This document shows, one piece after another, positions 19,364 through 55,213 of a stretch of 64,000 bases of DNA. The DNA is from Salinisphaera orenii subsp. halophila YIM 95161. Its GTDB lineage: Bacteria; Pseudomonadota; Gammaproteobacteria; Nevskiales; Salinisphaeraceae. The stretch is from the NCBI RefSeq assembly GCF_003732545.1, contig NZ_AYKF01000001.1:62001-126000 (forward strand). The letters run 5' to 3'. A program made the position numbers and the translations under genes. The number at the start of each line of letters is the position of its first letter. Positions within the stretch are counted from its first letter, which is position 1. The notes below the pieces were generated by a model that saw nothing but the letters and a program-made list of their open reading frames with translations, did no database searches and was not told the origin of the DNA.

Positions 19364-19801
19364 CTACAGACCGACCGCCGAACCGTCCTCGCATTTGTCG
19401 AGATCGTCGTCGATATCGAGCACGCGCTCGCCGTAGAACAGGTGCAGCGCGGGTGCCAATTCAGACGGCAGCTTGCCGCCATTGTTCTTGCGGAACACGT
19501 TATGACGGATGACCGGAATACCCGGCTTGTGGCGCCCGTACATGGTCATGCCGCACTTCGGGCAGCCATAGCGGTGCATTTCCTTGCCGTCGGTCTTATG
19601 GTGAAACAGCTTGGAGTCGTCCGGCAGATCGACGTTTTCCTCGTCCCAACCGGTCAGGCCCAGCACGTCGGCGGCGTACAGCTCGCGACAGCTGCCGCAG
19701 TGACAGTAGAGCGATAGCTTGGGCTCGCCTCGGACCGTCATCTTCACGTGGCCGCAGTCGCAGCTGATGTCGTAGGTCTGGCTCACATCGATTGTGCTCA
19801 A
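19364..19801 (-). CDS. GFA-family zinc-binding protein (CENP-V/GFA domain)
   Basis: The 145-residue protein has the cysteine pattern of the glutathione-dependent formaldehyde-activating (GFA) fold: CDCGHVKM near residue 14, YCHCGSCRELY near residue 32 and YGCPKCGMTMYG near residue 78. These Cys residues bind structural and catalytic zinc. Most members have no tested substrate, so S-hydroxymethylglutathione synthase activity should not be assumed. The gene stands alone: the 1.1 kb upstream is free of genes, and a hairpin separates it from nadE. Confidence 0.8.
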   Translation of the reverse strand: MSTIDVSQTYDISCDCGHVKMTVRGEPKLSLYCHCGSCRELYAADVLGLTGWDEENVDLPDDSKLFHHKTDGKEMHRYGCPKCGMTMYGRHKPGIPVIRHNVFRKNNGGKLPSELAPALHLFYGERVLDIDDDLDKCEDGSAVGL

Positions 19802-19956
19802 TTGAACTGTGACGTCATTCGAGCACGTATCATAGGCGTAATTCTATAACGTCGAACGCGTGATCAGCGGGCTGGAATTTACGCGCAAAGCTCATTCAAG
19901 AATTCAAGCATTCACACCATGAGGCTTTCAGCGCTCACGAGTGTGTCGTGCCTTTT

Positions 19957-20026
19957 GTTTCGCACTGCCGTGCGACTCACTTTCATTTGCTTGTCCAAAC
20001 GAAAGTGAGCAGAGGAAAGAACACCC
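19957..20026 (+). repeat. Left terminal inverted repeat of the 0.78-kb element
   Basis: The arm itself folds: CTCACTTTCATTTG pairs with CAAACGAAAGTGAG around a CTTGTC loop, and CGCACTGCCGTGCG is a smaller palindrome. The reverse complement matches 20669-20738 with mismatches only at scattered positions. Confidence 0.8.
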
Positions 20027-20668
20027 GGCATAGCGCCGGCTACGCCGTGTCGTACGAAGCGAGGAGCGGGGCCTTCCCAGCGTAGCTGGGATGCGACCGC
20101 CGGCGTTCGGCCCGAGCCCCGAGGCGACGACTCGTACGGTTTCGTCCCGCCGAAGATCACATCCCACAGCGTCGCTGCGGGAGCGCCCTGCTCCGCCTCT
20201 CGGGGCGATACGCCGAGGCGCAGCGGCGACGGGATGCGGTCCTAAATAATTGATTGAGGCTCGCATCATCGCTTTGGCGATGCTCAAACAGCTTGCCGCA
20301 CCGGCGCTGTGCGCCGGACACCAGTGGCCGCTACGCCTCTCCGTCGCTGCACTAACGGGACCCGAATACGGGCGCCGAGCGCCGGGCATCCAGTGGTAAT
20401 CGGCTACCGCGTTCTCTCTACGGTTCGCGTCTTCATTATTCCTGTCGGCTTACGCCTTCGGCTAATCCGACTTACAACAATTGTGACCTTGAGCGAGCGA
20501 TAGCGAGCTTGCCTGTATTCCAGTCCCTTGGGCGTAGCGCCGAGCAGCGGAGCACGGCCGGGGATGAAGCAGCCGGGTGTCTGAGTCGCGCGTAGCGCGG
20601 CGAGTTCCGGCTGCGCCCCGGACGGGCGAGCAGCACAGGGCATCGATGCGAAGCATCGACGCAAGACA

Positions 20669-20738
20669 GGGTGTCCTTTGCTTTGCTCACTTTCATTTGG
20701 ACAAGCAAATGAAAGTGAGTCGCACAACAGTGCGAAAC
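20669..20738 (-). repeat. Right terminal inverted repeat of the 0.78-kb element
   Basis: It is the mirror image of the left arm, with the same internal stem CTCACTTTCATTTG / CAAATGAAAGTGAG, here fully paired. It ends with TCGCACAACAGTGCGAAAC. Confidence 0.8.
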
Positions 20739-20848
20739 ACCAGGCCCAAATCAACCTAAGCAGTTGATTCGACACTGGTCACCGAAACCGAACCAAGCTT
20801 CGCTTTGAAAAAACGCGAAACGCGACAAGGGTCTCGAACCTTCACCCA

Positions 20849-20923: not shown

Positions 20924-21793
20924 TCAGCCCAGGATTTCCTCCATCTTGCTGCCGATCTCGGCGGTCGAACGCACGGTCGCCACACCGGCGGCCTCGAGGG
21001 CTTCGAACTTGTCGTCCGCCGTGCCCTTGCCACCGGAGATGATGGCGCCCGCGTGGCCCATGCGCTTGCCGGGCGGCGCGGTCACGCCGGCGATGTAGGC
21101 CACGACCGGCTTCTTCATGTGGGCCTTGATGTATTCGGCGGCCTCTTCCTCGGCGGTGCCGCCGATCTCGCCCACCATGACCACGCCTGCGGTCTGCGGG
21201 TCATTCTCGAACATCTCGAGCACGTCGGTGAAGTCGAGACCGTGGATCGGGTCGCCGCCGATGCCCACGCAGGTGCTCTGCCCGAGGCCGTTGTGGGTGG
21301 TCTGGAACACCGCCTCGTAGGTCAGCGTGCCGGAACGCGAGACGATGCCGATCTTGCCTTCCTGATGGATGTGCGCCGGCATGATGCCGATCTTGCACTC
21401 GCCCGGCGTGATCACGCCGGGGCAGTTCGGCCCGATCAGCACGGAGTCGGAATCGTCGAGCGCGGCACGCACGCGCAGCATGTCCATCACAGGGATGTGC
21501 TCGGTGATGCAGATGATGGTCTTGATACCGGCGTCGGCGGCCTCGAGGATGGCGTCGGCGGCGAACGGCGCCGGCACATAGATCATGGTGGCGTTGGCGC
21601 CGGTTTCACGCACCGCGTCGCCGCAGGTGTTGAACACGGGGCGATCGAGATGGGTCTCGCCGCCACGTCCGGGGGTCACGCCGCCAACGATGTTGGTGCC
21701 GTAGGCGATGCACTGCTCGGAGTGGAACGTGCCCTGCGAGCCGGTGAAGCCCTGGACGATCAGCTTGGTGTCTTTGTTGACGAGAATGCTCAT
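20924..21793 (-). CDS. sucD: Succinyl-CoA ligase, alpha subunit
   Basis: The alpha subunit carries the phosphohistidine of succinyl-CoA synthetase, the TCA step that makes ATP or GTP from succinyl-CoA. The 289-residue protein has the CoA-binding Rossmann start ([15 protein letters not shown]) and the [19 protein letters not shown] block. The [13 protein letters not shown] loop holds the active-site His. It lies 52 bp behind sucC in one operon and is followed by a strong terminator. No sucA or sucB gene is in this window. Confidence 0.97.
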
Positions 21794-54574: not shown

Positions 54575-54860
54575 GCGCGAGTCAAACGACCGAAAAATCC
54601 GGCTAAACAGGCATTTCCGAGGCCTTTTCACAAGCGTCTCATCAAGAGATTGGCTCGCGATTTTGTCTTTTCATTCCATGTGTTTGGGCGCGTTATATGA
54701 ATTAAACGATCACGTTCCGCGCCTGCGCTGACGAACGTCGCCCAAAGCAGCGTGACGAGAGAAAATGGGGTGTGGGGCAATGTGGTGCGCGACCGCCGGC
54801 GCAGGGCAGTCGCTCCACATGGGCGGCCGACCGGACGGTACGGGGCATTCAAAGAAGAGT
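54575..54860. other. Gene-free gap between the dcw promoter and rnpB
   Basis: This 286-bp stretch is visibly more AT-rich than its surroundings between 54580 and 54720 and has no credible gene. It must hold the end of the RNase P transcript; the minus-strand T-rich run CTCTTCTTTGAA just left of 54861 may serve this. Confidence 0.45.
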
Positions 54861-54861
54861 T

Positions 54862-55213
<352 letters not shown>

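Follow-up and report, generated by a model that had tools for sequence, protein, structure and literature searches.

A dispersed family of gene-free DNA elements with predicted intrastrand triplex ends in Beta- and Gammaproteobacteria

The segment from 19957 to 20738 of the window (the whole stretch of 64,000 nucleotides analyzed) is best explained as a member of a dispersed family of gene-free DNA elements of Beta- and Gammaproteobacteria, the inverted ends of which are predicted to be A-rich intrastrand triplex motifs. A probability of about two in three is given to this explanation. The copies are dispersed, their ends stand head to head, each end contains two covarying hairpins, and the helices show no preference for G-U pairs. 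Furthermore, a third strand mirrors the purine strand of the second hairpin and covaries with it. The formation of the triplex itself we infer from the sequence.

Structure and occurrence of the element

The repeat has a palindrome-rich interior with numerous short inverted repeats, and its 70-bp ends (19957–20026 and 20669–20738) match in inverted orientation at 64 of 70 positions (91.4%). Longer arms of 89 nt each, 19950–20038 and 20657–20745, are 85% complementary and have 618 nt between them. Folded as single-stranded DNA, each arm gives a GC hairpin of 6 bp and, after it, a hairpin of 14 bp, with energies of -15.6 and -20.4 kcal/mol (z -4.1 and -5.6; none of 200 shuffles as good). The full 782 nt reach -237 kcal/mol, and shuffled sequences average -167 (z -12.4; 0 of 20). 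The seed CTCACTTTCATTTG, with at most two mismatches, is present four times in the window, always within the element, when 0.06 occurrences are expected. Pfam gave no match for the three ORFs that overlap the element (153, 123 and 82 aa). An earlier sequence-only reading of the segment had described its coordinates and inverted ends (about 64 of 70 positions) exactly, and also its accounts of arms forming their own hairpins and of a gene-free interior packed with small palindromes were borne out. The neighbors are both on the minus strand, a GFA-family gene at 19364–19801 and sucD at 20924–21793, with an NAD synthase gene farther on.

Each end has the same order of parts: GC hairpin, pyrimidine stem, loop, purine stem, a 4-nt loop and a purine run that mirrors the stem (Table 1). 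This mirror copy of the purine strand sits just inside each arm hairpin. It was overlooked in the sequence-only reading, as was the conserved sequence outside the arms, which extends outward for approximately 25–35 nt. The left flank is common to the subfamily copies of the own genome (G000) and of G003, G004, G005, G009 and G012, and is retained at solo sites. In the interior, the long imperfect hairpin region has a z of -2.2 when folded by itself, with 4 of 200 shuffles reaching as good a value, and its stem is retained among the copies with changes on both sides.

Table 1. Positions of the element, its parts and its conserved flanks in the window.
Feature	Position	Strand	Basis or remark
Outer left flank, conserved, GCTCACGAGT..CCTTTTG	19933..19956	+	by eye, listing of 43 copies
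Whole element, 782 bp	19957..20738	+	two inverted 70-bp ends and palindrome-rich interior
Left outer GC hairpin, TCGCAC-TGCC-GTGCGA	19960..19975	+	fold
Left arm pyrimidine stem, CTTTCATTTG	19980..19989	+	
Left arm purine stem, CAAACGAAAG	19996..20005	+	
Left arm third strand, CAGAGGAAAG	20010..20019	+	mirrors purine stem; one mismatch, one C-G interruption
Inner conserved box, AACACCC	20020..20026	+	
Interior long imperfect hairpin region	20540..20625	+	copy listing by eye, consensus fold
Interior hairpin, CGATGC-GAA-GCATCG	20640..20662	+	paired changes among copies (CGGCGC-GTA-GCGCCG)
Right arm inner conserved box (GGGTGTC on +)	20669..20675	-	
Right arm third strand (CTTTGCTTTG on +, CAAAGCAAAG on -)	20676..20685	-	
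Right arm purine stem, read on -, CAAATGAAAG	20690..20699	-	
Right arm pyrimidine stem, read on -, CTTTCATTTG	20706..20715	-	
Right outer GC hairpin	20720..20735	-	fold
Outer right flank, conserved, ACCAGGCCCAAATCAACC..GTTGATTC	20738..20772	+	by eye; retained at solo sites

In the own genome, BLAST gave 21 matches on eight contigs, with the query and cross-matches from arm to arm counted among them, and 13 arms were found at E 0.001. All 14 Salinisphaera genomes searched had matches, and the search of relatives found them in at least 35 of 61 genomes; two contigs of S. orenii MK-B5 bear sister copies. The search for further copies proposed in the sequence-only reading thus found them dispersed both in the own genome and in relatives, contradicting the case which that reading had set against itself, a single copy with no relatives. 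That the segment belongs to a dispersed repeat family is close to certain. The exact core pattern also matched one Methylibium, two Rubrivivax and one Rhizobacter record, and the end anatomy of the Rubrivivax copy is identical in kind. The Methylibium and Rhizobacter loci (L067, L070) are single giant hairpins with the outer arm on both sides of the core hairpin, and look like the outcome of a deletion of the body between the two core hairpins.

A covariance model of the arm, R1, built from 31 arms, matched at least 73 of the 398 Pseudomonadota genomes sampled and at least 45 of 213 genera, which are lower bounds given the strict filters and the 12 candidates scored per genome. Of the positive genomes, 51 (counting the own genome) belong to the same class, and the other 22 come from a single family that lies outside it. 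These 22 (family f45; for example G093, G096 and G100) are small genomes, whose matches may be genuine members or A-rich look-alikes. Many of the R1 matches form +/- pairs 0.2–0.8 kb apart. Genome G250, Pseudomonas-like by sequence, had at least 147 arm matches when 150 candidates were scored. The 126 matches listed for it formed 43 pairs and 40 singles, the partners of some singles lying beyond the list, and 40 of these 43 pairs span 639–790 bp, the other three being near 2 kb. Most of the G250 copies (L175–L186) are bounded by an additional outer inverted repeat, TTGATACCGGACTGGCAAGTTTGTG. Many G250 arms score equally in the model, yet whole copies are 74–80% identical to one copy.

The Salinisphaera set included 43 copies paired by hand from the arm matches, + then -, so that their head-to-head order is partly by construction. 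Loci L033–L035, L099, L107, L111 and L112 were excluded as incomplete or unpaired, as were single arms in L081, L092, L102 and L104. Neither the element nor the core pattern had a match in the plasmid, phage and viral collections; with the Rubrivivax copy as query none was found in phages, and one partial arm was found in a Variovorax plasmid record. No description of this repeat family was found among the open-licence papers listed, and a text search with oligonucleotides brought up two unrelated papers.

Covariation of the hairpins and the third strand

Eleven of the 20 base pairs in the arm hairpins show changes in both partners, and the covariation score is 0.284 against 0.097 when shuffled (0 of 500). 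Also the consensus folds of 39 copies (the 43 without one outgroup and three near-identical sister copies) included many compensated helices. A structured RNA locus, either a large non-coding RNA or a 3' UTR element, would likewise have a very stable fold with many compensated helices, and the sequence-only reading had listed it among its possibilities. An RNA, being read from one strand, would be expected to tolerate G-U pairs but not A-C pairs. Folds of a single strand favor G-U by construction (G-U 191 and A-C 56 in the plus fold, 41 and 310 in the minus fold), and therefore only the helices common to both strands were counted. In these, the numbers of G-U and A-C were 25 and 39 in the 39 Salinisphaera-set copies, 19 and 11 in 12 copies of G250, and four and three in six copies of G306, the cells not being independent. 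The RNase P control of the same genus, analyzed with the same method from ten of 15 matches, had 12 G-U and no A-C.

The contrast is plain: the helices behave as DNA palindromes, and the similar numbers of G-U and A-C, unlike those of RNase P, indicate that the fold has been kept as DNA and not as RNA. Rfam, moreover, gave nothing at gathering level in the window except RNase P, and nothing up to E 1 for six related loci. A structured RNA is accordingly considered very improbable. The RNase P RNA class A gene that served as a control lies in the window itself, at 54859–55212 on the minus strand. Correction of palindromes by template switching could maintain the pairing of the helices without selection, though it would not yield the mirror described below.

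The third strand follows the purine stem of its own arm, as for example in the stems CAAAGAAAAG, CAAGAGAAAG, CAGAAGAAAG and CAAATAAAAG, which are accompanied by the third strands CAAAAGAAAG, CAAAGAGAAG, CAAAGAAGAG and CAAAACAAAAG, respectively. The model with which the arms were collected contains no pairing between stem and third strand. Of its 187 matches 150 were aligned, giving 107 distinct pairs of stem and third strand, from which 23 of other stem length were dropped. In the remaining 84 arms the mirror identity was 0.891, compared to 0.779 when third strands were exchanged between arms (0 of 5000 permutations as high). Shifted registers gave 0.35–0.56, and the un-mirrored identity was 0.72, a high value of the kind expected from A-rich runs. 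The effect was large in 38 arms from outside Salinisphaera, with 18 genus labels (0.947 against 0.773; 0 of 5000), and smaller in the 46 Salinisphaera arms (0.845 against 0.803; 0 of 5000). Relatedness remains in these permutations and is reduced only in the test that takes a single third strand per stem type (20 types), in which the mirror identity was 0.887 against 0.732 (0 of 10,000).

In the 84 arms, an A of the purine stem is accompanied by A in the third strand in 513 of 531 positions, and G by G in 84 of 92. The partners at interruptions are also non-random: T is accompanied by C in 16 of 20 positions, and C by G or A in 27 of 29 (14 G, 13 A and two C). Among the 20 types, T has C in five of seven positions, and C has A in five, G in two and C in two (n = 9). 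Read on the pyrimidine-rich strand, the code is T.AT, C.GC, G.TA and T/C.CG. The code of the pyrimidine-motif triplex is T.AT and C.GC, with G.TA and C/T.CG as the preferred natural triplets at interruptions.

These results bear on a rival explanation, an ordinary MITE-like element whose ends are palindromic and whose mirror run would be a repeat bound by protein and never a triplex. It would account for a short, dispersed and gene-free repeat with inverted ends, and for the resemblance of purine stem and third strand also without mirroring. The mirror identity, however, exceeds the un-mirrored identity and that of every shifted register, and the third strand follows individual changes of the stem. 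Mirror symmetry is read by a triple helix but not by a dimeric protein, and we know of no copying process that makes mirror repeats. As also a transposase partner and a target duplication were looked for and not found (see below), the plain MITE-like element is regarded as improbable.

The covariation of the third strand across genera is instead evidence pointing to a selected bacterial DNA triple helix, and selection of the ends as putative intrastrand triplexes is well supported by these comparisons. If the DNA became single-stranded or strongly supercoiled, each end would fold back twice, forming a hairpin and a triple helix, and the folded ends would be what is recognized. A fuller proposal is that the ends are working, selected triple helices, which would mark the termini for copying, excision or the binding of proteins, with a third strand following the triplex code down to its choices at T-A and C-G interruptions, in a gene-free element class that spans two large groups of Proteobacteria; this is tentative, the odds being somewhat against it.

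The formation and relevance of intramolecular DNA triplexes in living bacteria is a long-standing question, and covariation is evidence of the sort by which RNA structures were established. No earlier report of a covarying third strand of a bacterial DNA triplex was found among the open-licence papers listed. With its many natural variants and its compensated sets, the family lends itself to a direct test of the triplex. If the reading is true, it also describes a common class of intergenic repeats for Pseudomonas-like, Salinisphaera and Burkholderiales genomes.

Comparison with described repeats

The TM_ECO motif of E. coli, in our reading the same as Box C, is a G/C-rich intrastrand triplex motif of 34–37 nt that forms a triplex in vitro and has been linked to local deletions and instability; it is not reported to be associated with mobile elements (Holder et al. 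2015, PMC4666352). TM_ECO resembles the present arms in having a pyrimidine stem, a loop of 3–6 nt, a purine stem, a short loop and a second purine strand that mirrors the first, and it is likewise intergenic and sometimes present in inverted pairs. In four of the five inverted pairs of its Table 1 the order is + then -, which places the third strands inside, the polarity found also here. The arms have the Y-loop-R-loop-R order with a mirroring third strand, but being A-rich they depart from the TM_ECO consensus CCCTCNCCC-N3-6-GGGNGAGGG-N3-GGGNGAGGG. Compared to the published motif they also have an additional outer GC hairpin, varied sequence and a covarying third strand, and they bound elements of 0.3–0.9 kb with a structured interior.

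The inverted TM_ECO pairs, with third strands inside in four of five, would fit a composite origin, in which two Box C- or REP-like units had come to lie head to head by chance with ordinary DNA between them, and so would the single-hairpin forms that exist in Burkholderiales. The interior, however, is conserved by approximately 70–84% both between non-orthologous copies and between species, and it includes conserved hairpins. Furthermore, the units occur in tandem with spacers of 86–89 nt (seven junctions at five loci). A chance composite is therefore given little probability. The suggestion in the sequence-only reading of two repeat units meeting head to head described the architecture correctly and was incomplete in that conservation within the genus extends to the interior.

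REPINs and BIMEs with their RAYT transposases (Bertels and Rainey 2011, PMC3116915) are, like the present family, multicopy intergenic repeats of inverted palindromic units that carry no gene. The present units differ in their size of 0.3–0.9 kb and in their conserved interior, and no arm was found within the 1.5-kb flanks of the eight RAYT loci inspected out of the many Y1 matches listed. RAYT-type (Y1) genes were present in 45 of 61 genomes, some of which lack the repeat. Thus RAYT, tried as the obvious partner, was unsupported.

The family also shares with MITEs (reviewed in PMC10969869) its dispersed, gene-free copies with terminal inverted repeats. It differs in having folded motifs as ends, and neither a parent transposon nor a target duplication was found in the copies examined. 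The P. fluorescens repeats R26, R178 and R200 are described as unexplained intergenic repeats of 101–352 bp (Silby et al. 2009, PMC2718517). They come from a related kind of host and, compared by description alone, may be fragments of the present repeat family.

Gain, loss and insertions

Downstream of sucD, one unit is present in the own genome and in its sister G012, and two units in G004. At the same place, both conserved flanks surround a lone outer hairpin in G005, a remnant of the flank is left in G003, and G009 has nothing. In the stretch examined, the body had no match in ten of the 13 genomes matched by the sucD query. Bare outer hairpins, searched as a pattern with one mismatch allowed, numbered five in G005 and one in G002, with none in the other 12 of the 14 genomes. 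By eye, the five G005 sites (L118, L264, L266, L267 and L268) retain both family flanks, and the G002 site does not retain the left one. The G005 hairpins suggest either lineage-specific precise loss or an unoccupied platform. The bodies have either been lost or were never gained, precisely between matching hairpins.

Such sites bear on whether the element is a chromosomal site serving the host, such as a terminator, an insulator or a nucleoid or gyrase site, that is kept by selection and is not mobile. Orthologous copies do stay in place, at the sucD locus of G000, G012 and G004 and also, with flanks matching by eye, at L032/L078/L106 and L079/L086; compensation keeps the helices, and the G250 copies L176, L178, L179 and L185 directly follow terminator-like hairpins (by eye). 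The sucD locus, on the other hand, is without the body in ten relatives, with only a short gap in G009, and copy number is very uneven within one genus: under equal strict settings all 12 scored candidates were positive in G250, which has the large number of arms reported above, and none of 12 in G190. On balance a host-serving site is considered unlikely. A role of the folded ends in movement, as opposed to a function for the host, is given even odds at best.

Of the possibilities in the sequence-only reading, a non-autonomous mobile element fits best, in view of the dispersed copies, the presence and absence at one locus between species and the uneven copy number; signs of the movement itself, such as a mobilizing enzyme, a duplicated target or a recent jump, did not emerge. 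The search for a mobilizing transposase partner found none. Flanking duplication, which the same reading had proposed to look for, and flank palindromes were not found beyond chance in sets of six, ten and 11 copies, in which the outer boundaries are uncertain and the copies look old. An idea formed by eye, insertion into the center of unique palindromes, failed against permuted flanks. The own genome and G012 appear to share full copies, and therefore no recent jump was seen. Empty sites were sought in 40 genomes of the genus of G250 with 1258 of the 2520 nt of joined flanking sequence, covering three of six sites, and the seven loci inspected gave only diverged or disrupted sites.

With less confidence than the folding of the ends, it is suggested that a host-encoded activity handling single strands may copy or move the element in trans, and that a precise deletion from one matching end to the other may remove its body, with one hairpin left as a scar. 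At one locus of G465 (L235), otherwise shared, the left end of the repeat is followed by an apparent transposase coding sequence; its flanks lie on different contigs, suggesting rearrangement at the repeat.

Over-long copies were found in the few genomes inspected, with IS110 inserts interrupting the arm or the interior. An autonomous, gene-bearing version of the element was considered for these and left unsupported, as the four interrupted copies examined (L033, L209, L210 and L211) all contain IS110-family transposases instead. The assignment was made by Pfam for L033, L209 and L210, and L211 shares the protein of L210. In the Salinisphaera copy L033 (insert at G000:C110, 1409–2332) the element is interrupted within its third strand, as it is at position 62 in L210 and L211; in L209 the interruption lies in the interior. 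The third strand is thus the place of the break in three of four copies, two of the three being the same IS. We take the IS110 elements to be visitors and not the mobilizer, and the breaks make it possible that the arms are site-specific landing pads for them. If so, the family would also be a landing site of IS110 elements, which are RNA-guided. Intergenic palindromic repeats (REP) are described as landing sites of IS110 elements by Tobes and Pareja (2006, PMC1525189); the present four copies are alike in carrying IS110 in palindromic intergenic repeats, and differ in that the target is a repeat with predicted triplex ends, interrupted mostly in its third strand.
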